DNA of 34,615 bases from the NCBI GenBank assembly GCA_018268395.1, contig JAFDWQ010000014.1, positions 1 through 34,615 of the forward strand, in the 5' to 3' direction. This document shows, piece after piece, positions 164-32,189 of the stretch (position 1 is the stretch's first letter; the number at the start of each line of letters is the position of its first letter). A model generated the notes under the pieces. That model did no database searches, was not told where the DNA came from, and saw only the letters and a list, made by a program, of their open reading frames with translations. This DNA comes from Armatimonadota bacterium (lineage in GTDB: Bacteria; Armatimonadota; Fimbriimonadia; Fimbriimonadales; Fimbriimonadaceae). The position numbers and the translations under genes were made by a program.

Positions 164-913
164 ATGTATTGCTTTTCGAGAGGAACCGTTTCGGCGGTGG
201 CGCTGCTGGCACTGGCGGCCCCGTCGCACGCCTACGTCCTGATCGACGACTTCACTCAGGGAACCTTCGATAAGACCTACTTGGACGACTTCACGAACGA
301 CTTCCACGAGAGGCTCGGTCTGGATCAGGACCATGTTGCTTTCGGAGAGAGGCAAGTGCGTTTCGAAATCGGCGGGAACCTGGACCACCACCCGGTGAGA
401 CTGAAGATCGGTGACGGCGCGGCGAAGGTGACGACCGACACCCACGGCGTCTCGACCAGGTGGGACATGGTCTGGGGGAACAGCGATCTCGTCACGATCG
501 ACTTCTCCCACGAGAAGGAGTTTTGGATCGACCTCTACACGAAAGACCCCCCGAACAGGCTCGCCGACATCTGGAGCCTCTACGTCCGGGACAGCCACGG
601 CGTCGCCGGCAACAATCCGGGCTGGCTCTTCAGGCAGGGAGGGATCAGGTTCAGGAAGCAGGACTTCAACCCCCTGATCGACTGGTCGAGCATCGAGTAC
701 TTCGACTTTGATCAAACGTATAGCACCGACGTCGGTCCACATCCGCTGGAATACAGCGTCACGAAAATCTACGCAGTCCCTGAACCGGGTGGCTTCATTT
801 GGTTTCTTGCGGCGGGCATGTGCGCCCGCCGCAAGAAACACGTTCAACAGGCCAGCCAGCGCCCGTTCGACCCCTCCCTTGTAGAACACGACGGGTGGCC
901 TGACCAAGGGTGA
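164..913 (+). CDS. Exported PEP-CTERM-like protein, LDDF family copy A
   Basis: The 249-residue product starts with a signal peptide (hydrophobic core about residues 8-20, probable cleavage after SHA at 23) followed by LIDDFTQG. A C-terminal PEP-CTERM-like anchor is visible: VPEP at 205-208, a short hydrophobic stretch, then ARRKK. Such tails act as sorting and anchoring signals cleaved by exosortase-type enzymes in other bacteria. The body is nearly identical to copy B (13673-14356) and clearly related to four shorter copies at 14886, 28022, 29728 and 31471. Unlike copy B, it continues about 22 residues past the basic cluster into repeat-like sequence, as if its original stop was lost. It is also the only copy not facing a tailspike tip fragment. 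Start chosen because ATG, -10 spacing and signal peptide agree. Molecular function unknown. Confidence 0.85.
   Translation: MYCFSRGTVSAVALLALAAPSHAYVLIDDFTQGTFDKTYLDDFTNDFHERLGLDQDHVAFGERQVRFEIGGNLDHHPVRLKIGDGAAKVTTDTHGVSTRWDMVWGNSDLVTIDFSHEKEFWIDLYTKDPPNRLADIWSLYVRDSHGVAGNNPGWLFRQGGIRFRKQDFNPLIDWSSIEYFDFDQTYSTDVGPHPLEYSVTKIYAVPEPGGFIWFLAAGMCARRKKHVQQASQRPFDPSLVEHDGWPDQG
803..838. terminator. Perfect hairpin inside the LDDF copy A anchor region
   Basis: A 15-bp perfect stem (803-817 with 824-838, arm TTTCTTGCGGCGGGC) with a 6-nt loop lies within the coding sequence for the C-terminal anchor. Hairpins at the equivalent place occur in the other LDDF genes. Here the reading frame runs about 75 bp past it. 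Confidence 0.6.
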
Positions 914-12488: not shown

Positions 12489-12736
12489 TTTCCTGTCGTC
12501 GGCGGACTTTCCGCTGTCGACAGGGAACTTTCCGCCGTTGACAAGAATGTTTCCGCTGTCGTCGGGGAGCTCTTCGCCGTTGACAAGAATGTTTCCGCCG
12601 TCGTCGGGGAACTCTTCGCCGTTGACAAGAATGTTTCCGCTGTCGACAGGAATGTTTCCGCTGACGTCAGGGAACTCCTCGCCATTGACAGGAAATTTTC
12701 CGGAAAGACCCCTCAAAACGCGTTTTGAACCTGAAA
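12489..12736 (+). repeat. Long 21-bp-periodic array with conserved tail
   Basis: From 12508 nine consecutive 21-bp units can be laid out (TTTCCGCTGTCGACAGGGAAC and variants), with a partial unit before and after. Two variants partly alternate, one ending GACAAGAATG and one ending TCGGGGAAC, giving 42-bp similarity too. The array ends in TTTTCCGGAAAGACCCCTC, the palindrome CAAAACGCGTTTTG (12714-12727) and GAACCTGAAAC. Both strands are open over parts of the array because 21 is a multiple of three; I do not regard those frames as genes. Confidence 0.8.
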
Positions 12737-12756
12737 CGGGCCGGAGCGGGCCGACG

Positions 12757-12824
12757 GGTGGCCCGGTCTGGCAACGGTGTCCACGCTTCATCCCGCCGGA
12801 CACGAGACCGTTGCAGACCGGGGC
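12757..12824 (+). repeat. GGGTGG-headed hairpin repeat, copy 3
   Basis: GGGTGG, arm CCCGGTCTGGCAACGG (12762-12777), a loop containing CATCCCGCCGGACA, then arm CCGTTGCAGACCGGGG (12808-12823). The loop is almost the same as in copies 1 and 4. Confidence 0.85.
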
Positions 12825-12847
12825 AAGGGCGCTGCATCAGACCGGAC

Positions 12848-12989: not shown

Positions 12990-13103
12990 ATACTGGGCTG
13001 GACGTTCTCGGACAAGAACCGTGGTGACGTCCTTGACCCGGTCTGCAACGGGACAGTCGCGCTCGGAAGGCTCGCCACGGCGCGCTGCCAGACCGGGCCA
13101 CCC
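12990..13103 (-). repeat. Extended GGGTGG hairpin repeat, copy 5, abutting a tip fragment
   Basis: The hairpin (arms 13037-13051 and 13084-13097) has an extra upstream part, GGACGTTCT..GTGGTGACGTCCTTGA, shared with copy 6 at 14536-14647. The element ends CCACCCGTC, and the homology of the following coding sequence to the tailspike tip starts at that point (13104). Confidence 0.8.
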
Positions 13104-13139
13104 GTCAACGCCGGCTTCGTCAGAACGGAGGGCAACACG

Positions 13140-13676
13140 GTGCAGCAGAAGACGTACCCGTGGGCGGTCAACGCGCTTTCGGTCAAGGCGGCGGGTCGGT
13201 TCCAGTTGCCGTTGTTGGACACTCTCCCCACGGCGGGGATGACTCCTGGCGGCGACGCGGAAGGGATGGGCTGGAAGAGCGCCGTATCGGCCGGCGACTA
13301 CGACCTACAGGACGGGGAGCTCTACTTCGACTCCTGGCAAAAGGCGGTCCTGGCGTACGACTCCGACGCCGGTTGGACAGCTGTCTGGCAGCCAGAACGC
13401 ACGAAGCTGATCTCGTCGAACATAACTTGGAACACGGGTGACGAGAAGAACCTTGTCTACGGAGGGTCCACGAGCATTACGGTCACGCTGGACACGACTC
13501 TCGCAGACATCGCAGTAGGGACGACCGTCCGGATCGCGTATCACGTATCCGGTACGCCGCTGGCGGCGATCTCCGTCAGTTGCGGCCAGCCTGCGAACGT
13601 CGTCGTGGGCCCGAACACCGGCCGTACCTTCGTGTTCTATAAGGACGGATCGAACGGTCGCTGGCTCGCCTCTTAA
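13140..13676 (+). CDS. Orphan tailspike tip (C-terminal fragment), cluster 1 copy 1
   Basis: The 178-residue reading frame corresponds to residues about 905-1087 of the full-length protein at 24755. It keeps YPWAVNALSVKAAGRFQLP, then GMGW, DLQDGELYFDSWQKAVLA and WQPE, but has no N-terminal beta-helix and no signal peptide. Homology actually begins at 13104, directly after a hairpin repeat. GTG at 13140 has GGAGGG seven bases upstream, so translation is possible; it may equally be a silent remnant. Its TAA overlaps the stop of the convergent LDDF gene within one TTAA (13673-13676). The GELYFD..W.. pattern is common in receptor-binding ends of phage tail fibres, which is a resemblance only. Confidence 0.7.
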   Translation: MQQKTYPWAVNALSVKAAGRFQLPLLDTLPTAGMTPGGDAEGMGWKSAVSAGDYDLQDGELYFDSWQKAVLAYDSDAGWTAVWQPERTKLISSNITWNTGDEKNLVYGGSTSITVTLDTTLADIAVGTTVRIAYHVSGTPLAAISVSCGQPANVVVGPNTGRTFVFYKDGSNGRWLAS

Positions 13677-14356
13677 CGCTTACTGCGGCGGCAGGCGATC
13701 CAGCCTACCGCCGCCAATATGGCTAAACCGCACGGCTCGGGGACGGCATAAATCCTGGTGACTCCGTATTCAAACGGGTGGGGGCCAATGTTAGTTGTGT
13801 ACCGTTGCTCGAAGTCGAAGTACTCGATACTCGACCAGTCGATGAGGGGGTTGAAGTCCTGCTTCCTGAACCTGATCCCTCCCTGCCTGAAGAGCCAGCC
13901 CGGATTGTTGCCGGCGACGCCGTGGCTGTCCCGGACGTAGAGGCTCCAGATGTCGGCGAACCTTTCCGGGGGGTCTTTCGTATAGAGGTCTATCCAGAAC
14001 TCTTTCTCGCGGGAGAAGTCGATCGTTATTCGATCGCTGTTCCCCCAGACCATGTCCCACCTGGTGGAGACGTCGTGGGTGTCGGTCGACACTTTGGCCG
14101 CGCCGTCTCCGATCTTCAGTCTCACCGGGTGGTGGTCCAGATTCCCACCGATCGAGAAGGTCGTGAGCCTCTCTCCAAACGCAATATGGTCGTTGTCGAG
14201 GTTCAAGCGCTCGTGTGTCTCGTTCGTGAAGTCGTCAAAGTAGGTCTTGTCGAAGGTTCCCTGAGTGAAGTCATCGATCAAAACGTAGGCGTGCGACGGG
14301 GCCGCCAGCGCCAGTAGCGCCAATGCCGCCACGATTCCTCTCGAAAAGCAAAGCAC
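13673..14356 (-). CDS. Exported PEP-CTERM-like protein, LDDF family copy B
   Basis: A 227-residue protein, GTG start, signal peptide ending PSHA at about residue 23, then YVLIDDFTQGTFDKTYFDDF. The C-terminus is a complete PEP-CTERM-like tripartite tail: VPEP at 205-208, a hydrophobic segment and CRRSKR at the very end, where it stops as expected. It is very similar to copy A along the whole length, including the promoter, so the two are recent duplicates. Internal conserved blocks are FGERL, LKIGDGAAKV, LYVRDSHGVAGNNPGWLFRQGGIRF and DWSSIEYFDF. It faces the tip fragment at 13140. Likely surface-exposed or secreted; role unknown. Confidence 0.85.
   Translation of the reverse strand: MLCFSRGIVAALALLALAAPSHAYVLIDDFTQGTFDKTYFDDFTNETHERLNLDNDHIAFGERLTTFSIGGNLDHHPVRLKIGDGAAKVSTDTHDVSTRWDMVWGNSDRITIDFSREKEFWIDLYTKDPPERFADIWSLYVRDSHGVAGNNPGWLFRQGGIRFRKQDFNPLIDWSSIEYFDFEQRYTTNIGPHPFEYGVTRIYAVPEPCGLAILAAVGWIACRRSKR
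13685..13714. terminator. Hairpin at the 3' end of LDDF copy B
   Basis: GCGGCGG pairs with CCGCCGC, continued by GGC with GCC, around a small loop. It lies within the last codons of copy B and just beyond the stop of the facing tip fragment, so it could end transcription from both directions. Confidence 0.55.
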
Positions 14357-14535: not shown

Positions 14536-14647
14536 CGGGCTCGGACGTTCTGGGACGCGACTCTTGGTGACGTCCTTGACCCGGTCTGCAACGGGTCGGT
14601 CGCGCTCGAGATTCCGCCATGGCGCGTTGCCAGACCGGGCCACCCGT
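14536..14647 (-). repeat. Extended GGGTGG hairpin repeat, copy 6, abutting a tip fragment
   Basis: Arms 14580-14594 and 14625-14639 plus the upstream GGACGTTCT..GGTGACGTCCTTGA segment make this the closest relative of copy 5. It again ends CCACCCGTC and the tip homology begins immediately after. Confidence 0.8.
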
Positions 14648-14881
14648 CAGACCCTCAACCTGGACACCGATGTGACCCAGGTGCCCCCCGGAACGATCGT
14701 CCGGGTCTTCAACCTGACCAGTTCAGGGGCCGGTGCGGTGGTCACGGTCAAGGTCGGGGGTAGCAACCTGTCGCTCGTGAGCGTGCTGCACATGTCGGAG
14801 TTCGTCTTCTACGTGGACGGCGGTGGTACGGGACACTGGCTGGTCGTTCAAGGCAACGTGACGAGCGCACAACTGCCCTAG
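14648..14881 (+). pseudogene. Orphan tailspike tip remnant, cluster 1 copy 2
   Basis: Only the last 77 residues of the tip remain (QTLNLDTDVTQVPPG, TIVRVFNL, VTVKVGGSNLSLVSV, MSEFVFYVDGG, WLVVQGNVTSAQLP), matching residues about 1010-1087 of the protein at 24755 and even more closely the end of the fragment at 29500-29727. No start codon or ribosome-binding site belongs to it; the frame is open upstream only through the repeat. It ends four bases before the stop of the facing LDDF gene. Confidence 0.75.
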
Positions 14882-14885
14882 CCCT

Positions 14886-15512
14886 CTACTGAAGCAACGA
14901 TGAAGCCGGCGGGACGGCCGCCGGCTTCATCGTCACGTAGAACCGGGTGACACAATAGGTCGTAGGGTTCGGGAAGACGATGAAGTCCTGCCGGAAGTCC
15001 AGATACTCGATGCGCGACCAGTCTACACCGCCGCTGAACTCCGACCGCTTGAAAAAGATGCCCTTCGGCTGCCCTTGCCAATAGTCGTTCCCCCCAGTCT
15101 TCCCGTTCCGGTCGCGGATACTTAGGCCGAACACGTCCGCAGTGCGGCCAGGCGAAATCGTGTAAAAGTCCACGTAGATCCTGTCGACCTTCGACAGGTC
15201 AAGGCCCGGCCCCTCGGCCATGTAATAGCTGGTCTTTAAGGTGTACGCCACTTCGAGCGGACTCGTGACCTTCTGCCCCTCCGGCCCGAGCGAAAAGGTG
15301 AGCACCGTGTCGTGGGGGTTGGATCCGATGTCGATGTTCGTGCTGCGCTGCGAGAACAGACAGTGCGGCCACTTGAGCCCGTACCAGGTGTGCAGGTCTT
15401 CCCACTCCTTCGTTATCTGGACGGTGTACGGCGTATCGAAGCGGTCGATGTCGATCGCCTTGTAGTGCTGAACTTGAGGTGCCAGGAGTGCGGCGGCGAG
15501 GACGGCGGACAT
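14886..15512 (-). CDS. Exported LDDF-family protein, copy C
   Basis: A 208-residue protein with a short hydrophobic start (MSAVLAAALLAPQ) that probably serves for export, though it lacks a basic n-region. It shares with the family the blocks TVQITKEW, FSQRSTNIDIGSNPHDTVLTFSLG, DLSKVDRIYVDFYTI, IRDRNGKTGGNDYWQ, GGVDWSRIEYLDF and PNPTTYCVTRFYVT. The usual DDF motif is IDRF here. The end is KPAAVPPASSLLQ instead of a PEP-CTERM tail, so it would be released or held by other means. Start ATG at 15512 follows TAGACT by nine bases with GAAGG between. Paired convergently with the tip remnant at 14648. Confidence 0.8.
   Translation of the reverse strand: MSAVLAAALLAPQVQHYKAIDIDRFDTPYTVQITKEWEDLHTWYGLKWPHCLFSQRSTNIDIGSNPHDTVLTFSLGPEGQKVTSPLEVAYTLKTSYYMAEGPGLDLSKVDRIYVDFYTISPGRTADVFGLSIRDRNGKTGGNDYWQGQPKGIFFKRSEFSGGVDWSRIEYLDFRQDFIVFPNPTTYCVTRFYVTMKPAAVPPASSLLQ
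14899..14931. terminator. Bidirectional terminator inside LDDF copy C
   Basis: A 14-bp perfect stem (14899-14912, GATGAAGCCGGCGG, with 14918-14931) and a 5-nt loop encode part of the KPAAVPPAS end of copy C. It lies 18 bp beyond the stop of the facing tip remnant. Confidence 0.7.
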
Positions 15513-15981: not shown

Positions 15982-16620
15982 ATGAGCTACTACAACATCA
16001 AGGCGTCCGCTTTGCCGACATGGTACGGAAATTTCGTGACCACCGCGCTGGCCAATTCGGCCCTTTTGAACCTGACTCCGCCTCAAATCGCGGCTCTTCA
16101 GGCGCAGCTCACCGCGCTCAACACCGCGTTCGCCGCGCAGCAGACCGCGCACGACGCTTCCAAGTCCGCGACGCTCGCCAAAGACCTGAAGGTCGCGGAG
16201 ACCATCAACGTCGTCCGTGGCTACGCGAACCAGTGGCAGGCGATGCCGACCGTGCCGGACACGCTGATCGCTTCCCTTGGACTGATCGTACGCGACACCC
16301 AGCCCAGCCCGCGCCCGGTCTTCGTTCCGACCGAACTCGTGGTCGTCCCGAACACCACGGGCACGAACGAACTTCGCTGGAAGCGGAACGGCAACAAGAA
16401 CGGCATCAAGTTCGACATCGAAGTCAGCTACGAGAATCCGGGCGCTTGGACGGCGGTCACGTCCGTCACCGCCGCGAAGTTCAAGCACATGGGCCAGACG
16501 CCGGGGCAGACCGCCTATTACCGAGTCCGTGCCCGGAACGGCTCGAACGTCTCCGACTGGTCGGTCTCGGCGTCGACCTTCGCGAACGACGGCGACGGCG
16601 CGCTCCAGCTCGCGGCCTGA
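15982..16620 (+). CDS. Fibronectin type III-domain protein 1
   Basis: A 212-residue protein without signal peptide. Residues about 10-80 are alanine-rich helix with heptad-like spacing (TPPQIAALQAQLTALNTAFAA, AKDLKVAETINVVRGYANQW). Residues about 105-205 form a fibronectin type III domain: TGTNELRWKRNGN, KFDIEVSYENPGAWTAV, GQTPGQTAYYRVRARNGS, NVSDWSVSASTFA. The paralogue at 23641 has the same length and about three quarters of residues in common by eye. Start ATG with AAGGAAAG upstream. GAACCTGAAA lies 104 bp before the start, and GAACCT lies 107 bp before the paralogue. Possible structural or binding protein; function unknown. It follows cassette cluster 1. Confidence 0.82.
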   Translation: MSYYNIKASALPTWYGNFVTTALANSALLNLTPPQIAALQAQLTALNTAFAAQQTAHDASKSATLAKDLKVAETINVVRGYANQWQAMPTVPDTLIASLGLIVRDTQPSPRPVFVPTELVVVPNTTGTNELRWKRNGNKNGIKFDIEVSYENPGAWTAVTSVTAAKFKHMGQTPGQTAYYRVRARNGSNVSDWSVSASTFANDGDGALQLAA

Positions 16621-23310: not shown

Positions 23311-23340
23311 CCGCGAGGAACTTTGTCAGACAAGGACCGC

Positions 23341-23545
23341 GCCGACATCGGCGGACGATCCGCCTTGAAAAGTCTGCTCTTCGCCGACATCGGCGGACGG
23401 TCCACATCGAAAAGTTTGTCTTCCGCCGACATCGGCGGAGGATCCGCCTTGCAAAGCGGACGCTTCGCCGACATCGGCGGACGGTCCGCTTTGAAAAGGA
23501 AACTCTCCGGCAAAGCTGGCAAAGGAACGTTTTGAACCTAAGAGT
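23341..23545 (+). repeat. 21-bp-periodic array upstream of fibronectin-III gene 2
   Basis: Eight 21-bp units (23341-23508) alternate between type A (GCCGACATCGGCGGACGATCC) split as GCCGACATCGGC plus GGACGATCC, and type B (GCCTTGAAAAG plus TCTGCTCTTC). Thus a 42-bp period is clear: type A recurs at 23341, 23383, 23425 and 23467. It ends CTCTCCGGCAAAG..GGAACGTTTTGAACCT, the same kind of tail as the arrays at 10472 and 12489. Type A units are quasi-palindromic. Confidence 0.82.
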
Positions 23546-23640: not shown

Positions 23641-24279
23641 ATGTCCTACTACGACATCCCAACATCGGCGTTACCGGCTTGGACCACGAACTTCGTGAGC
23701 ACGGCCGCCCTGAACAGCGTGACCTTAGGTCTGTCCGCGCCCCAAGTCGCGGCCCTACAATCTCAGCTCGCCGCGCTCAACAGCGCTTTCGCCGCCCGCG
23801 AGACCGCTCTTGAAGCCGCGAAGTCCGCCACGGTCGCAAAGGACCAGAAGGTGGCGGAAGTGATCGGCGTGATCCGGGGCTATGCCAATACCTGGCAGGC
23901 CAGCGCGACCGTGCCCGACACGCTGATCGCCGCACTCGGTCTGAACGTCCGCGACACCACCCACACCACCCGCCCGGTCTTCGTGCCGCTCGCCCTGGTC
24001 GTCCTCCCGAACGTGACGGGCACGAACGAACTGCGATGGAAGCGGAACGGCAACCTCCAGGGCGTCAAGTTCGACATCGAGGTCAGCTATGAGGCTCCGG
24101 GCGCCTGGGCGGCCGTCACGACCGTGACCTCGGCCAAGTTCAAGCACACGGGCCAGACCCCGGGACAGACGGCGTACTACCGCGTCCGTGCCCGCAACGG
24201 CGCGAACGTATCGGACTGGTCGGTCTCGGCGTCGACTTTCGCCAACGACGGCGGCGGAACGCTCACGCTCGCAGCTTAA
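23641..24279 (+). CDS. Fibronectin type III-domain protein 2
   Basis: A 212-residue paralogue of the protein at 15982, same order: helical N-terminal part (APQVAALQSQLAALNSAFAA, AKDQKVAEVIGVIRGYANTW), the link VPDTLIAALGLNVRDT, then a fibronectin type III domain (TGTNELRWKRNGNLQGVKFDIEV, GQTPGQTAYYRVRARNGANVSDWSVSASTFA). The C-terminal third is almost identical to copy 1; the helical part has changed more. No signal peptide, so it is cytosolic or leaves by a non-Sec route. It stands upstream of the tailspike-like gene on the same strand, separated by a terminator and a 420-bp leader. Confidence 0.82.
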   Translation: MSYYDIPTSALPAWTTNFVSTAALNSVTLGLSAPQVAALQSQLAALNSAFAARETALEAAKSATVAKDQKVAEVIGVIRGYANTWQASATVPDTLIAALGLNVRDTTHTTRPVFVPLALVVLPNVTGTNELRWKRNGNLQGVKFDIEVSYEAPGAWAAVTTVTSAKFKHTGQTPGQTAYYRVRARNGANVSDWSVSASTFANDGGGTLTLAA

Positions 24280-24754: not shown

Positions 24755-27700
24755 ATGGCAAACGTCATCAATCTCGGATCCGTCGTCGAGATGGCAAACC
24801 AAGCCCTCCCATCAGACGGCGACATGTTTCAGTGCGCGGGATACTACGAACCAGGGGATGGAGGCGGCGGCCTCTACCGGTTCGACGACGAGGACGAATC
24901 GCAACCGAACTATGGGAGCGTCGTCGGAAAATTCATTCCAGCGTCACCATCAGGCGGCGCGTTCGCTACAGGCCGCTACCTGCTCGTCCACGAAGGCTTC
25001 GTCAACGTGCGTCAGTTCGGGGCCCTTGGAGGGGAGGACGACATGACCCTCCAGGCGCAAAGCACTCCTCGGTGGGAGAACGACGATCACATCCTGCAGA
25101 CCTACGGAGACCAGAGTTCGGGCGACGTCGCGCCAGGCACTCCGTTCAACGGATTGATCGTCGACGCCGACACCGTGGATTGGGCGGCGCTCCAGATCGC
25201 TGAAATCTGGTGCGCCGAGAATGGTGTGCGCCTCGAGGTTCCGTCAGGTGTTTACATGCTACGACGGCCCCTTTGGTTGGGCGACGATTCCACTGTCGCC
25301 GTCGATGAGAACGAGAAGGACAACCGGCAGCTCGGGTTCACGATGCTTGGCCAGACCTCCGTGTCGCGCATCGAGTCGGACTCTTGGCCCTCGACCGAGA
25401 ACGTCGGCGGCAATGCGAACTTCCGGCTTTTCAACGACTGCAATAACCGATATTGCCTGTCGATGAACACGGAACCTGCGGCCATGTCCGAATTCCGGCT
25501 CGTGTTCAAGTTTGCTACAGGCGATGTCACCGTCAGCGGACTGTCCGTGACCGACCTTGCAGGTGCAATTTCAAGCGCGATCGAAGCGGCCATGCCGATC
25601 GACTGGACCGTATCGCCCGACGTCCCCGATACTTCCGCGCCGCTGTCGGAGCAGAACCTGTACTTCCAGATTAACCCGGACCTCACCTCGGACGACCCGA
25701 ATCCCTTCCTCGGAGAAGTGGAAGTCCGCGATGAAGCCGGTGAGCACCCGCTCGTCCACTACGTGCGCTGCCTGCCGGATTGCGCCGTCGTGAGCTTCAG
25801 GAGGAGCGCCGGCGGCAGGATGAGGATAGGGAACCTGACGCTGAGAGGCAACGACGACGACTCGGACCGGAACGCGTGCTTCGGCATGCTGTTCACGACC
25901 AGCCAGTTCGTCGGGCACCAGGTCGAGCGGGTCATGGTCAACTATGTCGACACTGCCCTCGGACTGCTCCAAGGAACGGGCGCGAACGGAGAGCAGACAA
26001 GGGTCTCGCGCTTCTTCGGCAACCAGGTCAGGCGGGCCTACTATTCCAACGCGCCACAGGCCTTCGAGCAGGAGTTCGACGGCTGGAACATGGCGATCGC
26101 CGACCGCGACCCCGATGCGGACCCGCTTCCCGACCAGATCTTCGCGGAGTTCGCCCAAATGCCGGCGCCGGGCGTCGGCGTCAACTTCATCAATGCGCAC
26201 TGCACCTTTGGAGGCGGGGAGAACCTTGAGGGCAGGGGCATCCTCGTCAAGATCCGCCGTGGAACGGGCATCTTGCAGTTCAACGGTGGACGGATGGAAC
26301 ACCTTGGCAGGCTCTTCGATTACGACGCGATCGACGGCCAAGGCTCGCGCGACGACCTCGATTGCTTCATCCGAGGCATGGAGTTCGACGGTGTCCGCGG
26401 GGGGGCCGACAGGGCGTTTGTTTTCGGCGACGACGCCGGCGGCACGCCGGGGACGAACTACGGCCTGTTCGTGACGGACTGCACGTTCCGCGGAAAGTCC
26501 GGGGCCGAGCCAGAAGACACGGACCTTCGGTTCGAGACGAAGCAAAAGGACAATGTCCGCTGCATCTTCGAGCGTTGCCGCTTCATCGGCCTCCGTTCGT
26601 TCCAGATGACGAACTTCCGGGCCGACTTTTCGCGCTGCTATCGGAACGACTATTCGGTACCCGGAGGGACGGAGGCCTTCGGCCCGGCCAGGCAGTTCAA
26701 CCAGACGAGCGGCGCGCCGCAAGACCGGACCCAGTCCATGCGGACGGGATGGCAGGACACGCCCTGGGTGCAGACCGGGCCACGGACGAACATCATGGGG
26801 TTTTCGGACTTCGCGGGTCAAGCAAAGTCCTCTGGCCCAGACAGCGGGGTCGCGTTCAATTCAGGAGGCGCTTGGGAAATCGTCGGCGACACGGACTTGG
26901 CGGGGTTCGGCAAGTGGGGCGCGTTCTCGGGGTCCGATGATGCGAACATCAGCCCGAGCCCCGAAGCCTTCTACATCAGCCTGCTGCCAGGCACCCGGGT
27001 TCAGAACGTCATCGACGCGATCGACCTTTCTCTACCGAAAGTCGTGGGCTTGGACGAGGAGCCTGCTTCCAAGGTCGTGACGTTCCAGTGCCTCTGCCAG
27101 GTAAGGGGCAAGGCAAGGTTCGTCCTCGTGCGGAAACTGGACTCCTTCGTGGACACGGGCCAGGTCTTCGACGAACTGACCGTGGAGTCGCCGGACCCCG
27201 CGGTCTTCACCGAGCCCATGCTCGTGACGCTCCGGGCGCAGGTCTACCAGTTCATCGACCTGCACTTCACTTACGCGGTCGTCTGCATCGAGAACCCTGA
27301 ACCGGTCACCGGGGAGTGCAGCCTGCGCGTCCTGTGGCAGCAGGTCTGGGGCGGCACGGAAGCGACGGACGAGGCCGGGGAATACCCGCTGGCCGCCGGG
27401 CTCGCCAACGCGGGCCAGGCACGGGTGACGACGACCGAGCCCGTGAAGAACACCTACAACTGGGCGGTCAACGCGCTGGGGATCAAGGCCGCGAGCAAGT
27501 TCCAGCTGCCCAACCTCGACACCATTGAAGGCGGGGACGCGGCAGGAATGGGGTGGCTTAGTCCTAGCGACCTCGACGTAGCGCAAGACCTGGAGGACGG
27601 CGCGATGTACCACGATCAGTCTCAGTTCGCAGTGCTCGGACGATGCGACGAGCTATGGTACACGTTCGTGCAGCCCGAGCGTTTCCACTATCACCCAGGC

Positions 27701-28018
27701 GACGTAACATGGGTCGGAGGCACGGCGAAGAACTTGGTCTACGATGAGGCCGCAAGCCATGAGGTCACCTTATCGACCAATCTTGCCCTCGTGCCACGGG
27801 GCAGCATGGTGCGCGTGTTCAACTTCCGGACGAGCGTCGGAACGCTGTACCCTATCACGGTGAAGGTCGGAAGCTCGACTCTGGCGTCCGTCTCGAACTC
27901 GCTGATGGCGGAGTTCCTCTTCTGGGTGGACGACACAGACCCCGATCCTGAGAACTGGGTCGGCCGGTGGGTGGTGGTACAGAAAAGCCTGGCGACAGGA
28001 TACCTGCCGACGATCTGA
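24755..28018 (+). CDS. Tailspike-like beta-helix protein, full length
   Basis: A 1087-residue protein with no signal peptide (MANVINLGSVVEMANQ). Residues about 1-80 form an N-terminal head. At about 82 a pectate-lyase-3-type beta-helix entry motif starts (VNVRQFGALGGEDD .. WAALQIAEIWCAENGVRLEVPSGVYMLRRPL), and strand repeats run to about 660 (NLTLRGNDDDSDRNACFGM, TDCTFRGKSG, FERCRFIGLRS). From about 664 (GWQDTPWVQTGPR) to 935 lies a segment found almost unchanged in the downstream cassettes. Residues 936-1087 are the variable tip (GMGW, DLEDGAMYHDQSQFAVLG, WYTFVQPE, MAEFLFWVDD). This order fits phage-type tailspikes or other receptor-binding or glycan-degrading spikes; the sequence shows no catalytic residues I can assign. 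Its stop lies three bases from that of the convergent LDDF gene. Confidence 0.8.
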   Translation: MANVINLGSVVEMANQALPSDGDMFQCAGYYEPGDGGGGLYRFDDEDESQPNYGSVVGKFIPASPSGGAFATGRYLLVHEGFVNVRQFGALGGEDDMTLQAQSTPRWENDDHILQTYGDQSSGDVAPGTPFNGLIVDADTVDWAALQIAEIWCAENGVRLEVPSGVYMLRRPLWLGDDSTVAVDENEKDNRQLGFTMLGQTSVSRIESDSWPSTENVGGNANFRLFNDCNNRYCLSMNTEPAAMSEFRLVFKFATGDVTVSGLSVTDLAGAISSAIEAAMPIDWTVSPDVPDTSAPLSEQNLYFQINPDLTSDDPNPFLGEVEVRDEAGEHPLVHYVRCLPDCAVVSFRRSAGGRMRIGNLTLRGNDDDSDRNACFGMLFTTSQFVGHQVERVMVNYVDTALGLLQGTGANGEQTRVSRFFGNQVRRAYYSNAPQAFEQEFDGWNMAIADRDPDADPLPDQIFAEFAQMPAPGVGVNFINAHCTFGGGENLEGRGILVKIRRGTGILQFNGGRMEHLGRLFDYDAIDGQGSRDDLDCFIRGMEFDGVRGGADRAFVFGDDAGGTPGTNYGLFVTDCTFRGKSGAEPEDTDLRFETKQKDNVRCIFERCRFIGLRSFQMTNFRADFSRCYRNDYSVPGGTEAFGPARQFNQTSGAPQDRTQSMRTGWQDTPWVQTGPRTNIMGFSDFAGQAKSSGPDSGVAFNSGGAWEIVGDTDLAGFGKWGAFSGSDDANISPSPEAFYISLLPGTRVQNVIDAIDLSLPKVVGLDEEPASKVVTFQCLCQVRGKARFVLVRKLDSFVDTGQVFDELTVESPDPAVFTEPMLVTLRAQVYQFIDLHFTYAVVCIENPEPVTGECSLRVLWQQVWGGTEATDEAGEYPLAAGLANAGQARVTTTEPVKNTYNWAVNALGIKAASKFQLPNLDTIEGGDAAGMGWLSPSDLDVAQDLEDGAMYHDQSQFAVLGRCDELWYTFVQPERFHYHPGDVTWVGGTAKNLVYDEAASHEVTLSTNLALVPRGSMVRVFNFRTSVGTLYPITVKVGSSTLASVSNSLMAEFLFWVDDTDPDPENWVGRWVVVQKSLATGYLPTI

Positions 28019-28021
28019 GCC

Positions 28022-28630
28022 TCAGCCGATGCGCGACGCCGGGGGGGACACCCCCGGCGTCACCGTCGCGTAGAAGCGAGTTACCGTGTAGAAGAGGGGG
28101 TTGGGGAAGCTAGAAAAGGACTGCTGGTACTGTAGGAACACGATATGCTTCCAGTCCACACTACCCGCGAAAGCTGACCGGTTGAAGTAGACACCGTGGG
28201 GTTGTAGTAGCCAGCCGCCGTTCCCCGCGTCCTTCCCCGATTTGTCCCTGACGTACATCTCCGTGATGTCCGGGTATTTCTCGCAATCGAAGTAGAACCG
28301 CTGGATGTTGGAGAGGTCGATGTCCATCGACTCCACGTCTCCATACCTTAGCCAATAGTGCCAAGCCACTTGCTTGTCGCTATCGAACCTCTGCTCGTGG
28401 TTCCCGACCGCAAAGACCAGGGTCGCATGGTTCGGGTTGCTGCTGATGTCCAGAAAAGTGCGCCTCTGCCCGAAGGCGCAGTGCGCCCTGTCCAGTCCGG
28501 CGAACTCGCGGTCGTCCTGCTGGCCCCCGACAAGCGTAACCGAGAATTCTCCGGTCGTAAAGTCGTCAAGATTCACGTACTTCACGGTCTGCGGCGCGAA
28601 GGCAATTGCAGCGGCGAGGACGGCGGTCAT
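28022..28630 (-). CDS. Exported LDDF-family protein, copy D (partner of the full-length tailspike)
   Basis: A 202-residue protein with a short hydrophobic N-terminus (MTAVLAAAIAFAPQ) and the family blocks LDDFTTGEFSVTL, LDRAHCAFGQRRTFLDISSNPNHATLVFAVG, HEQRFDSDKQVAWHY, MDIDLSNIQRFYFDCEKYPD, YVRDKSGKDAGNGGWLLQPHGVYF, GSVDWKHIVFLQYQQSF and NPLFYTVTRFYAT. The end is TPGVSPPASRIG with no PEP-CTERM tail. TATACT lies six bases upstream of the ATG, so the message is probably leaderless, and the -35 region would fall within the next cassette's coding sequence. Function unknown; the fixed position opposite a tailspike tip suggests a linked role or linked inheritance. Confidence 0.83.
   Translation of the reverse strand: MTAVLAAAIAFAPQTVKYVNLDDFTTGEFSVTLVGGQQDDREFAGLDRAHCAFGQRRTFLDISSNPNHATLVFAVGNHEQRFDSDKQVAWHYWLRYGDVESMDIDLSNIQRFYFDCEKYPDITEMYVRDKSGKDAGNGGWLLQPHGVYFNRSAFAGSVDWKHIVFLQYQQSFSSFPNPLFYTVTRFYATVTPGVSPPASRIG
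28035..28061. terminator. Bidirectional terminator inside LDDF copy D
   Basis: GACGCCGGGGG (28035-28045) pairs perfectly with CCCCCGGCGTC (28051-28061), loop GGACA. It lies 17 bp beyond the tailspike stop codon and within the last codons of the LDDF gene. Confidence 0.75.
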
Positions 28631-28649
28631 GGCTTCAGTATATCGTCGC

Positions 28650-29727
28650 TTTCGGCAAGTGGGGAGCCTTTGACCAGGCGAACATCAGTCCAAGTCCCGA
28701 AGCGTTTTACGTCGGCCTGCCGGAAGGATCGCGGCTGGAGAACGAGCTGAGCGAGATCGACCTCAACCTTCCGATCCCGATGACCACCGACCCCGCGACG
28801 AAGGTGGTCACGTACCAGTGCCTGTGCAAGGTCAAGGGCAAGGTGAGGTTCGCGCTCGTGAACTCGGACGACACCGGCACCTTGGACGAGATCGTCGTGG
28901 AGTCGGCCGTGGTCGACGGCGGCTACGCCTACACGGACGCGACCCTCGTCACGCTGAGGGCCCAGGTCTACGACGGCGGCCCGGCCTCGGTTCGCTATGC
29001 GGTCGTCGTCATCGAGAACGTCTCGCACTCTGACATCGACGACGACCTGAGCGCCTTGCAGGTCTACTGGCAGCAGGCCTGGGGCGGGAGCGAGGCGCAG
29101 CCCGACGACTACCCGCTCTCCGCCGGGCTCGCCAACGCGGGCCAGGCGCGGGTGACGACGACCGAGCCCGTGAAGAACACGTACAATTGGGCGGTCAACG
29201 CGCTTGGGATCAAGGCGGCCAGCAAGTTCCAATTGCCTCTCTTGGACACTTCGAGCGGAGGCGATGCGACGGGCATGGGCTGGAAAATGTCGACGGAGTC
29301 CGCCGCTTTAGCCGATCTACAGGACGGAGAACTGTACTACGACGCCTTCCAGCGCTCGATCCTCGGGCGCGCGGACGGTGCCTGGTGCCACCTCGCGCAA
29401 CCTGACACAGTTAACCTTGCTCCCATGTCTCCCTGGACGGGAGGTGACGCAAAGAACCAAATCTTCACCGACTCGACGAGCCAGGATTACACCTTGAGCA
29501 CGACGCTGTCAGACGTCCCAATCGGTTCCGTCGTGCGCGTCTTCAATCTCGGGACAAGCGGCGGCACCCCTCCGACCGTCACCGTAAAGGTCGGAGGCAG
29601 CGCCTTGTCCGCTGTAAGTTCTCTGCATATGTCGGAGTTCTTGTTTTATGTTGAAGACGTTATGGGCACGCCGACTGGGAAATGGCTCGTCGTTCAAGGG
29701 AACGTGACGACTAAGAGGCTCCCTTGA
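28650..29727 (+). pseudogene. Orphan tailspike tip cassette, cluster 2 copy 1
   Basis: About 358 codons matching the full-length protein from residue 718 (FGKWGAF, NISPSPEAFY) to the end. The region GLANAGQARVTTTEPVKNTYNWAVNALGIKAASKFQLP is shared, part of it with few nucleotide changes, whereas the tip (GMGWKMSTESAALADLQDGELYYDAFQRSILG .. WLVVQGNVTTKRLP) differs. Homology begins 20 bp from the start of the previous LDDF gene. There is no beta-helix and no proper start codon: the upstream in-frame ATG at 28606 lies inside the LDDF gene, and an internal ATG near 28780 lacks a ribosome-binding site. The frame is intact throughout, which argues for recent exchange or selection rather than old decay. 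The stop abuts the next LDDF stop with no base between. Confidence 0.75.
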
Positions 29728-30360
29728 TCAATGCCTGATTGCCTCTTTTGGAAGCGCCAGTGAAGCAGGGGGCACCGCCCCCGGCTTCATCGTCGCGTAA
29801 AATAGCGTGGAGGTAAAGTCGAGCGGGTTAGGCAGTTGGTTGAACCATTGCCGGAAACGGAGGTACGAGATGTGCTTCCAGTCGATACCGGTCGGAAAGT
29901 CCTGTTTGCGGAAGTAGATTCCCTTTGGATGAAGCAACCATCCGGCGCTTCCGCCGTGGAATGACTTGTCTTCGACGTAGATGTTCGACTGGTCAGGGAT
30001 CACGTAGCACTCAAAGTAGAAACGATCGACCAGTGAGAAGTCCATGTCCAAAGTGCCGGAGGCGCCATAGTCAACAGCATGGAGGTAGGTGAGCTGGTCT
30101 CCGGCTATCAGGCTTTTGCGACCTGCGCCAACATCCACGGACAAGGTCGTGTGTTTCGGGTTGCTCGTAATGTCCACTGAAATGCCGCGCTCGCCAAAAG
30201 CGCAGTGAGCCCTGTCCAGGTTGAAGACCTTTGCGTAGATGTCCGAAGTCCCCTGCATGACGGTCGAGTAGGGACCCGCGACGAAATCATCAAGCGTCCA
30301 GTACTTGATTCCTGGTTGGTTCTGCGGGGCCAACACAGCGAGAGCGACCAGCGCGGTCAT
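29728..30360 (-). CDS. Exported LDDF-family protein, copy E
   Basis: A 210-residue protein, hydrophobic start MTALVALAVLAPQ, then YWTLDDFVAGPYSTVM, LDRAHCAFGERGISVDITSNPKHTTLSVDVG, MDFSLVDRFYFECYVIPDQ, YVEDKSFHGGSAGWLLHPKGIYFRKQDF, GIDWKHISYLRFRQWF and NPLDFTSTLFYAT. The C-terminus KPGAVPPASLALPKEAIRH is a little longer than in its relatives. TAGAAT stands six bases before the ATG. It is the most diverged of the three in this cluster and carries RDxxGK as EDKSFH. Paired with the tip cassette at 28650. Confidence 0.82.
   Translation of the reverse strand: MTALVALAVLAPQNQPGIKYWTLDDFVAGPYSTVMQGTSDIYAKVFNLDRAHCAFGERGISVDITSNPKHTTLSVDVGAGRKSLIAGDQLTYLHAVDYGASGTLDMDFSLVDRFYFECYVIPDQSNIYVEDKSFHGGSAGWLLHPKGIYFRKQDFPTGIDWKHISYLRFRQWFNQLPNPLDFTSTLFYATMKPGAVPPASLALPKEAIRH
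29762..29788. terminator. Bidirectional terminator inside LDDF copy E
   Basis: GAAGC, a mismatch, GGGGGC (29762-29773) pairs with GCCCCC, the mismatch and GGCTTC-type end (29777-29788) around ACC. Confidence 0.65.
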
Positions 30361-30406
30361 GCCTTCATTCTACGACAGAAATTGGACCACGCCGGGTGTT
30401 CGGAGA

Positions 30407-31469
30407 GGGTGGCAGGACACGCCCTGGGTGCAGACCGGGCCTAGGACGAACTTCATGGGGTTATCGGACTTCGGGGGTCAAGCAAAGTCTTCTGGCCCAA
30501 GTCGTGGGCATGGACGAGGAGCCTGCTTCGAAGGTCGTGACGTTCCAGTGCCTCTGCCAGGTAAGGGGCAAGGCAAGGTTCGTCCTCGTGCGGAAACTGG
30601 ACTCCTTCGTGGACACGGGCGTGGTCTTCGACGAACTGACCGTGGAGTCGCCGGACCCCACGGTCTTCACCGAGCCCATGCTCGTGACGCTCCGGGCGCA
30701 GGTCTACCAGTTCATCGACCTGCACTTCACTTACGCGGTCGTCTGCATCGAGAACCCTGAGCCGGTCACCGGAGAGTGCAGCCTGCGCGTCCTGTGGCAG
30801 CAGGTCTGGGGCGGCACGGAGGCGACGGACGAGGCCGGGGATTACCCGCTCTCCGCCGGGCTCGCCAACGCGGGCCAGGCCCGCGTGACGACCACCGAGC
30901 CCGTGAAGAACACGTACAACTGGGCGGTCAACGCGCTCGGGATCAAGGCGGCGTCCAAGTTCCAGTTGCCGCTCCTTGACACCATTGAAGGCGGGGACGC
31001 TGAAGGTATGGGTTGGCGGAGTCCCGAAGCTCTTGCAGCGCAGTCGGACCTTCAGGACGGTGACATCTATCAGGACGCAAGCATGGTCGCTACACTTGGT
31101 CGTGCCGCCGGATCATGGACGACTTTCATTCAGCCGGAACGAGTCGCATATCAGCCTGGAGACGTCGACTGGCAGGGAGGTACTGAGAAGAACCTCTTTT
31201 ACAACGACGGGGCCAACCACACGGTCAATCTAATAACCGATCTGGACGTGGTTCCACCCGGCAGCATCGCCCGAGTGTTCAACATGAATCCGTTCGGCGG
31301 GTCGCCCTTCACGGTCTCGGTCCAGGTCGACTCGAGCGCCTTCCTGACGATCGCCAACTCGCAGATGGCCGAGTTCCTGTTCTGGGTGGACGACAATGTC
31401 GATCCGGCAGTCGGCCGTTGGATAGCGGTCCAAAGGAGCGTGTTCTGTTCGTATAAACCGACCATCTGA
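30407..31469 (+). pseudogene. Orphan tailspike tip cassette, cluster 2 copy 2, with internal deletion
   Basis: It matches the full-length protein from residue 664 (GWQDTPWVQTGPR) to the end, but lacks exactly the counterpart of 26840-27039 (200 bp), so the first 30 codons are out of frame with the rest. From about 30500 to 31000 the DNA is about 95% identical by eye to 27040-27540; beyond that the tip diverges (GMGWRSPEALAAQSDLQDGDIYQDASMVATLG .. FCSYKPTI). No start codon with ribosome-binding site precedes the intact part; the in-frame ATG at 30510 (GMDEEPAS) is the first within the homologous region. The stop is one base from the stop of the next LDDF gene. Confidence 0.8.
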
Positions 31470-31470
31470 C

Positions 31471-32088
31471 TTAAGGCACGCGTGCAGCCGGGGGTATTGC
31501 CCCTGGCTGCAACCTGGCATAAAACTTGGTCACGCTGTATGAAAGCGGGTTGGGAAAGCTGGAAAAGTCTTGCTTGTATTGCAGGAACACGATGTGCTTC
31601 CAGTCCACATTCCCGGTAAAGGCTTGCCGGCGGAAGTAGATGCCTCCCGGCATGAGCAGCCAACCGCCGTTGCCCCCACTCTTCCCTTGGGCGTCGCGTA
31701 CGTTGATGATGGGAGTGTCGGGAATCTGGTCGCAGTCGAACAAGAACCTGTCCACGCTAGAAAGGTCGATTGACATTGGACCGTCATAGCCGTACTGTAG
31801 GTCGTAGCCCCACGCCACCTGTCTTGGCGAATCGAACCGTTGCTCGTGGTTCCCGACCGATAGGGTCAGAGTCGTGTGGTTGGGGTTGCTGTTGATGTCG
31901 ACGTACGTCCGGCGCTGTCCGAAGACGCAATGCCTCCTGTCCAGGCCAGAAAAGCCGTGGTTGTCCGTACCTCCGCCTGCCAACGTGATCGTGTACGGTC
32001 CAACAGTGAAATCGTCCAGGGTCCATTCCTTCAGCCCAGGCACGGCCTGTGGCGACAGAACAAGAGCGGCGGCGAGGACGGCGGACAT
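31471..32088 (-). CDS. Exported LDDF-family protein, copy F
   Basis: A 205-residue protein, hydrophobic start MSAVLAAALVLSPQ, then LKEWTLDDFTVGPYTITL, LDRRHCVFGQRRTYVDINSNPNHTTLTLSVG, HEQRFDSPRQVAWGYDLQYG, SIDLSSVDRFLFDCDQIPD, VRDAQGKSGGNGGWLLMPGGIYFRRQAF, GNVDWKHIVFLQYKQDFSSFPNPLSYSVTKFYA. The end is QPGAIPPAARVP. It is closest to copy D. TAGAAT is nine bases before the ATG with GGAGG between them, so here a Shine-Dalgarno sequence may be used. The upstream 45 bp are conserved with copy C. It closes the cassette array. Confidence 0.83.
   Translation of the reverse strand: MSAVLAAALVLSPQAVPGLKEWTLDDFTVGPYTITLAGGGTDNHGFSGLDRRHCVFGQRRTYVDINSNPNHTTLTLSVGNHEQRFDSPRQVAWGYDLQYGYDGPMSIDLSSVDRFLFDCDQIPDTPIINVRDAQGKSGGNGGWLLMPGGIYFRRQAFTGNVDWKHIVFLQYKQDFSSFPNPLSYSVTKFYARLQPGAIPPAARVP
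31484..31510. terminator. Hairpin terminator inside LDDF copy F
   Basis: GCAGCCGGGG pairs with CCCCTGGCTGC (one G-T pair) around a short loop, 15 bp beyond the stop of the tip cassette at 30407. Confidence 0.6.
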
Positions 32089-32143: not shown

Positions 32144-32189
32144 CGGTCGGCGGGCTTCCCTGACCAAAGTCAGGGAAGCCCGCCGACCG
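32144..32189. repeat. Perfect 21-bp inverted repeat with 4-nt loop
   Basis: 32144-32164 (core GGTCGGCGGGCTTCCCTGAC) and 32169-32189 are perfect complements around CAAA. It lies between the divergent starts of LDDF copy F and the gene at 32210, 9 bp upstream of the latter's -10 box. As a terminator it would be oddly placed between divergent promoters. Confidence 0.85.

Follow-up and report, generated by a model that had tools for sequence, protein, structure and literature searches.

A chromosomal tailspike-like gene in Fimbriimonadaceae whose variable tip appears to be exchanged together with a convergent LDDF partner gene

We analysed a 34,615-bp stretch of DNA from an Armatimonadota bacterium of the family Fimbriimonadaceae (contig JAFDWQ010000014.1 of assembly GCA_018268395.1; the whole contig, C14 in our numbering, is the window), in which a tailspike-like gene and several displaced copies of its 3' end each face a convergent gene of a family that we call LDDF. 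The closest described systems come from several fields. The main and orphan Rhs genes of Salmonella LT2 share 95% identity over 522 bp, and the orphans lack start signals (PMC3967940). In contact-dependent growth inhibition (CDI), orphan pairs occur in tandem arrays, co-oriented with the cluster and associated with transposases, and it was proposed that the partner is kept for immunity (PMC4927057). For colicin M, the immunity gene cmi is usually found downstream of the bacteriocin gene with opposite orientation, and it encodes a protein active in the periplasm (PMC5821083). WceF of Pantoea stewartii is a chromosomally encoded, tailspike-like trimer that acts on exopolysaccharide (EPS) and carries a twin-arginine (Tat) signal (PMC7949094).

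All of the open reading frames named in a preliminary description of this stretch were recovered at the same coordinates. Its account of one 1087-residue spike gene with a convergent LDDF gene, followed by two further tip/LDDF units, held for the region 24755-32088, including the stop-to-stop gaps of 3, 0 and 1 bp in the three units (U3, U4 and U5). The complete spike gene of U3 (24755..28018, plus strand), identified by its reading frame, model and fold comparison, meets an LDDF gene of 202 codons (28022..28630, minus strand) that is predicted to encode an exported jelly-roll protein, CBM11/CIA30-like as modelled on the U5 homologue. The orphan tip of U4 (28651..29727, plus strand) has no evident start codon of its own; its homology to the spike begins at FGKWGAF, ~20 bp from the start of the LDDF gene of U3, and it faces an LDDF gene of 210 codons (29728..30360, minus strand). 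The orphan tip of U5 (30407..31469, plus strand) is paired with an LDDF gene of 205 codons (31471..32088, minus strand). The preliminary count of units was correct for this region, but a further two convergent units of the window, detected by DNA self-comparison and searches, had been overlooked. In U1, a tip remnant (13104..13676, plus strand), whose 5' boundary is a hairpin repeat of ~61 bp (module B), overlaps by 4 bp at the stop codons with an LDDF gene (13673..14356, minus strand) whose product has a signal peptide and a PEP-CTERM-like tail (VPEP...RRSKR). In U2 the last ~72 codons of a tip remain (14663..14881, plus strand) next to an LDDF gene of 208 codons (14886..15512, minus strand). 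Also missed was an additional LDDF copy (164..913, plus strand), 83% identical in nucleotides to that of U1, beside which ~46 bp of a tip end remains.

Comparison of the units revealed a mosaic boundary within the spike gene. U3 and U5 showed ~97% nucleotide identity as far as ~27510 and ~50-70% beyond. A junction core at 27397..27457 (plus strand), which encodes the linker before the tip, was 95-97% identical across U3, U4 and U5, and the sequences diverged distally, as had been described for the orphan tips; in U4 the flanks of this tract were 50-70% identical on either side. In the 5' part of U5, positions 30407-30499 match 26746-26839 and are followed by a 199-bp deletion that breaks the frame with the tip of this unit. 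The next stretch, 30499-31024, is 94% identical to 27039-27564 of U3 (526 bp), and U5 has its own distal sequence afterwards. The synonymous divergence (dS) between U3 and U5 was 0.107 for the stem, 1.45 for the variable tip domain (27511..28018, plus strand, in U3) and 1.58 for the LDDF gene. Because dS is low in the stem and high in both tip and LDDF, the exchange of tip and LDDF as a single block at the conserved linker, with displaced units gathered downstream, appears well supported. In the spike model the junction falls at the border between the linker (residues 869-948), with a predicted local distance difference test score (pLDDT) of ~30, and the tip (950-1080), with a score of ~90. 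The stem changes between U3 and U5 (n = 18) comprised 11 synonymous and 7 non-synonymous ones (P = 0.001 under neutrality), and in a simple branch model a wholly neutral U5 branch was unlikely (P = 0.0005). As most of these changes are synonymous, U5 was probably in use within a spike under selection until recently, over the greater part of the period after the two diverged. The LDDF gene of U5, the last unit, retains its full upstream block, as at unlinked copies, and those of U3 and U4 are cut close to the -10 element, as insertion of newer modules in front of U5 would predict.

Distances among tips and among their LDDF partners correlated over 14 pairs (Mantel r = 0.48, p = 1.5e-4). Three pairs, U1-G053b, C12b-G053c and U3-U5, were reciprocal nearest neighbours in the tip set and the LDDF set alike. 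The first two of these span different genera, so the tip and LDDF types either predate the genera or were transferred between them. The preliminary description had asked whether tip and LDDF trees agree pair by pair: U1 + G053b and U3 + U5 were grouped in both trees, but C12b + G053c was recovered in the LDDF tree and was absent from the tip tree. Its claim that tip and LDDF moved together agrees with the matching distances and with the two pair-for-pair correspondences across genera, and inheritance of the two as a linked pair seems well supported.

Convergent pairing recurred beyond the window. The genome from which the window comes (G000) contains 13 LDDF loci and 9 tip loci, with four convergent pairs on other contigs (two on C12, one each on C8 and C1); one of the C12 pairs belongs to a second spike, shortened by ~335 residues at its N-terminus. 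Among the 85 genomes of the family, tips were confined to G000, G034, G031 and G053. An LDDF gene is faced by 14 of the 15 tip matches, with stops between a 20-bp overlap and a 14-bp gap, and the fifteenth match ends at a contig edge. Every tip with its 3' end on a contig (14/14, in four genomes and three genera) therefore had its own convergent LDDF, far beyond chance and in agreement with what had been predicted from the window. One decayed tip/LDDF pair was found in G032. The possibility raised earlier that LDDF genes mostly occur without tips was not borne out, in that no tip was without an LDDF. Of the LDDF matches below about 1e-15, 14/24 had a tip, and of the weaker ones just the decayed remnant in G032 did. 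LDDF itself is a wider PEP-CTERM-type family. In a phylum-wide search with the spike, just short, weak matches were obtained outside six genomes of the family. G031 also holds a spike with neither tip nor LDDF, located between genes for UDP-glucose dehydrogenase and a GlmS-type enzyme, a position that hints at exopolysaccharide. The gene dnaK is close to the spike loci of G000 C12 and of G031 C2 (L058 159-2057 and L067 3058-4959), perhaps as the trace of an ancient common position. G052 carries tandem LDDF pseudogene copies (L068 7890-8519 and 8997-9626), each with a TAA stop and with equal match scores.

The spike protein consists of an N-terminal head, a beta-helix (~340-650), a jelly roll (~705-868), the conserved, low-confidence linker and the variable tip. 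Its matches in the PDB were mainly phage capsule depolymerase tailspikes, with WceF lower in the list, and global template-modelling (TM) scores were low; with modest confidence, the model suggests a right-handed beta-helix of tailspike type with C-terminal domains. In fold comparison the spike resembles the tailspike depolymerases K2-2 TSP (8iq5), CBA120 TSP4 (5w6h) and LKA1 gp49 (4ru4) in combining a beta-helix with a C-terminal beta-sandwich. Unlike those tailspikes, it lies outside a phage, with no viral match, no portal or sheath and housekeeping neighbours. A prophage tail module was rejected, given that the spike was unmatched in viral contigs and phage records, no sheath or portal gene was found in the spike-bearing genomes and the neighbours were housekeeping-like; a sheath was present solely in G061, a relative without this spike. 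WceF (6tgf) was among the fold matches and, like the spike, is chromosomal and tailspike-like, but it has a Tat signal, and no exchangeable tip/partner module was described for it (PMC7949094). The 1087-residue spike had no Pfam match at E <= 0.1, and hence none to Rhs/YD repeats or to CdiA-type two-partner-secretion or FHA domains. The tips align with one another as variants of one beta-rich domain, and no toxin match was found for them in Pfam, NCBIfam or PHROGs.

The LDDF model was a confident jelly roll (pLDDT 90.4). Its best PDB matches were a complex I assembly factor (NDUFAF1/CIA30), CBM11 and CBM86, with Foldseek E-values of 5e-5 to 8e-4. VIA Z values against CBM11/CIA30-type folds were about 8 to 9 at ~10% identity, which may reflect merely a common arrangement. 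LDDF resembles these jelly rolls in fold but not in sequence: it had no Pfam match and hence no CBM11/CIA30 sequence-family membership, and sugar binding is predicted at most. A sequence search of solved structures gave nothing convincing for LDDF and nothing for the spike; LDDF was likewise unmatched in viral contigs and in a tblastn search of plasmids, and a defence-system library gave no match. By inspection, a signal peptide and a C-terminal VPEP...RR tail were found in the LDDFs of U1, of the copy at 164-913, of C12 and of other genera. The PEP-CTERM-like tail is absent from those of U2-U5, C8 and C1s; LDDFs of the U2-U5 clade have a short hydrophobic N-terminus and may be exported as well. 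Exosortase was found in all six genomes tested, and the PEP-CTERM/exosortase system is tied to EPS (PMC1569441).

LDDF genes showed pairwise ratios of non-synonymous to synonymous divergence (dN/dS) of 0.13-0.49, their frames are open beside truncated or lost tips, and in the tree the unpaired LDDFs nest inside paired ones. The preliminary description had considered that the arrangement might be frozen and its frames decaying. Decay was seen in the tips, that of U5 being frame-broken and those of U1 and U2 remnants, but not in the intact LDDFs. Of 18 LDDF genes, 14 had a hexamer resembling a -10 element 6-9 nt upstream of the start, compared with a background of 1.4% (p about 2e-23) and with 13% at other genes (p about 7e-10), although the pattern was written after these sequences had been viewed, which makes both p-values optimistic. 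One of the four misses, the C15 LDDF, was scanned at a wrong start, and its true upstream region has TATACT. The same hexamer stands 6 nt before the ATG of the LDDF of U3, and TAGAAT precedes that of U4. Because of this proximity to the start, each LDDF is probably expressed on its own from a near-leaderless transcript.

The likeness to orphan Rhs and CDI modules proposed in the preliminary description was confirmed in its logic, that is, displaced downstream pairs with retained core homology. As with orphan Rhs-CT/RhsI, a main gene is followed by a 5'-truncated tip with its own partner, and ~500 bp at ~95% identity precede the diverged tip (PMC3967940); unlike there, no Rhs repeats or toxin domain were found, the partner is exported and convergent, and the tips are homologous alleles. 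As with CdiA-CT/CdiI, displaced pairs stand in tandem with transposase genes nearby (PMC4927057), but the adjacent partner is convergent in 14/14 pairs and the spike lacks a CdiA-type domain. Three other statements were not supported as they stood. A likeness to tail-fibre shufflons was rejected: tip repeats are all in direct orientation, none is inverted, and no invertase or recombinase was found among the called neighbours. A reusable reservoir of tips finds no support in orphan tips that lack starts, the frame break in U5 and the short remnants in U1 and U2 beside intact LDDFs, a pattern more in keeping with units that are kept for the sake of the partner than with units kept for the tip. 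The statement that convergent exported partners are not described was too strong: the CDI partner is co-oriented (PMC4927057), but the partner of colicin M, cmi, lies downstream and opposed, as LDDF does, and its product acts outside the cytoplasm (PMC5821083). In contrast to the spike, colicin M is a bacteriocin with an enzymatic domain, and tandem displaced tips were not described for it (PMC5821083). What would be new here is thus the combination of polymorphic binding tips, instead of toxins, with lectin-like partners, since convergent exported immunity alone is already known. We know of no such system in Armatimonadota, and Cmi is, to our knowledge, not known as a jelly-roll or PEP-CTERM protein.

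The explanation that we tentatively put forward, and consider quite possible, is that the spike is a host-encoded, tailspike-like, glycan-recognising protein with Rhs/CDI-like exchange of its 3' end, and that LDDF is a co-inherited self-protection partner. Incoming DNA carrying a tip and its convergent LDDF would recombine in the conserved codons of the linker, immediately ahead of the tip, and so provide the spike with a new tip and the matching LDDF. The former stem fragment, tip and LDDF would be displaced downstream as an orphan; in the simplest history, newer tip/LDDF modules entering at the linker displaced U5 downstream. As a cognate partner, LDDF would make the producer's own surface or exopolysaccharide tolerant of its spike tip, in an immunity-like or masking role, and such a role would explain both its travel with the tip and its outliving of displaced tips. 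The intact LDDFs beside decaying tips are suggestive of such retention. If this is true, module displacement of the Rhs/CDI kind extends beyond toxins, and a domesticated tailspike uses tip and partner exchange for surface recognition. It would also bear on whether immunity or compatibility can be conferred by an exported lectin-like protein and on how tailspikes turn into host proteins. A bolder version, which we consider doubtful, is a polymorphic self/non-self system that acts by glycan recognition and not by a toxin. The spike would be phage-derived and host-owned, with each swappable tip matched to an exported lectin-like partner; in this equally doubtful extension, the partner would define or protect the producer surface, and displaced partners would be kept against former or neighbouring tip types.

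Several observations weigh against the proposal of a self-protection partner. The tips share homology and resemble binding domains, and the harm that LDDF would guard against is not evident. No route of delivery or export was found for the spike, that is, no apparent signal peptide, and no contractile sheath or portal in the spike-bearing genomes; the spike model itself is modest, with a mean pLDDT of 66. Pairs from the window's own genome alone gave a weak correlation between tip and LDDF (r = 0.21, p = 0.17), partly because several tips are short. Moreover, the stem-LDDF distance correlation (0.70) was near that between tip and LDDF (0.73), so the correlation alone indicates linked descent and not a functional match. 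The -10 elements were recognised by similarity to a consensus and not by promoter mapping, and a small gene is more likely to outlast decay than one of 3 kb.

A possible but somewhat unlikely alternative dispenses with immunity: tip and LDDF would bind the same type of exopolysaccharide as a matched glycan toolkit. The spike would trim or cross-link EPS as WceF does stewartan, LDDF would be an EPS-anchored lectin, and the two would be co-inherited to fit the current glycan. Carbohydrate-module folds on both proteins, PEP-CTERM tails together with exosortase (PMC1569441), the G031 spike adjoining UDP-glucose dehydrogenase and the precedent of WceF as a bacterial tailspike-like EPS hydrolase (PMC7949094) all agree with this. 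By itself, however, it leaves the intact LDDFs after tip loss and the strict convergent joining unexplained, and WceF has a Tat signal whereas the spike is without an apparent signal peptide.

Repeats and transposase genes near the cassettes bear on another explanation. Module B is a ~61-bp hairpin repeat (CCCGGTCTGCAACGG...CGTTGCCAGACCGGG) with 21 exact copies genome-wide, 9 of which are no more than about 1 kb away from an LDDF. Copies lie at 14-118, 12753-12845, 13028-13106 and 14571-14649 of the window and at 1-61 of both C1 and C15; in the latter two contigs the first base is also that of the copy, and another copy is found at base 47 of C14. Of the Y1_Tnp genes of the own genome, 2/4 adjoin LDDF cassettes. 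Y1/RAYT-type genes by LDDF cassettes were located at L058 8063-8596, L062 1385-1945 and L068 9784-10446, in G000 and, by sequence inspection only, in G052. The LDDF could accordingly be mere cargo of a mobile cassette that enters the spike gene at its 3' end and rebuilds this end from the tip that it brings along, leaving the spike usable, with module A/B hairpins and RAYT-type Y1 transposases spreading or breaking cassettes. The proximity of module B and Y1_Tnp genes to LDDFs favours this, and truncated tips end at module A/B repeats. We nevertheless regard it as improbable: U3-U5 are without these repeats, for which reason the hairpins were rejected as cassette ends, the cassettes showed no terminal repeats that all of them share, and the 95-97% identity at the junction, which is a coding linker, speaks for homologous recombination.

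Still less probable is ordinary tandem duplication and decay, in which gene conversion kept the stems alike and the copies are frozen relics. The orphan tips without starts, the deletion and frame break in U5 and the short remnants in U1 and U2 would fit, but a dS of ~1.5 for tip and LDDF against 0.11 for the stem indicates no simple duplicate, the U1 and C12b pairs have their nearest relatives in another genus, and the LDDFs are intact and under purifying selection. A true polymorphic toxin of the Rhs, CDI or bacteriocin kind, with the tip as enzyme or toxin and LDDF as neutralising immunity protein, is highly improbable. The array does resemble orphan Rhs (95% over 522 bp there (PMC3967940), 94% over 526 bp between U3 and U5 here), and colicin M provides a known case of convergent exported immunity (PMC5821083), but the tips are homologous variants and not unrelated toxin folds, and they had no toxin match in the three libraries searched.

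Among the neighbouring genes, an FN3-type gene of 212 codons lies upstream of the spike (23641..24279, plus strand). It is 80% identical in nucleotides to a paralogue at 15982-16620, and each of the two adjoins one cassette group. Its candidacy as a third member of the unit is doubtful, as there are 11 copies in the genome, most of them away from tips, and its matches to phage 'minor tail' PHROGs seem due to the FN3 part. Small proteins of a common appearance (GxxGNVxFxR...VRxRxxPRxPxTPxQ), with no PHROGs match, are encoded near LDDF loci in three genomes (L070 4365-5030, L062 2426-3133 and L068 10499-11197). A near-perfect 46-bp inverted repeat at 32144-32189, between the LDDF gene of U5 and the next gene, is possibly a terminator. 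Minisatellite-like repeats were observed at 12495-12702 and 23340-23498 of the window and at about 11795-11951 of L058, where the minisatellite-like stretch (RGPEDES repeats) replaces the N-terminal third of the second spike.

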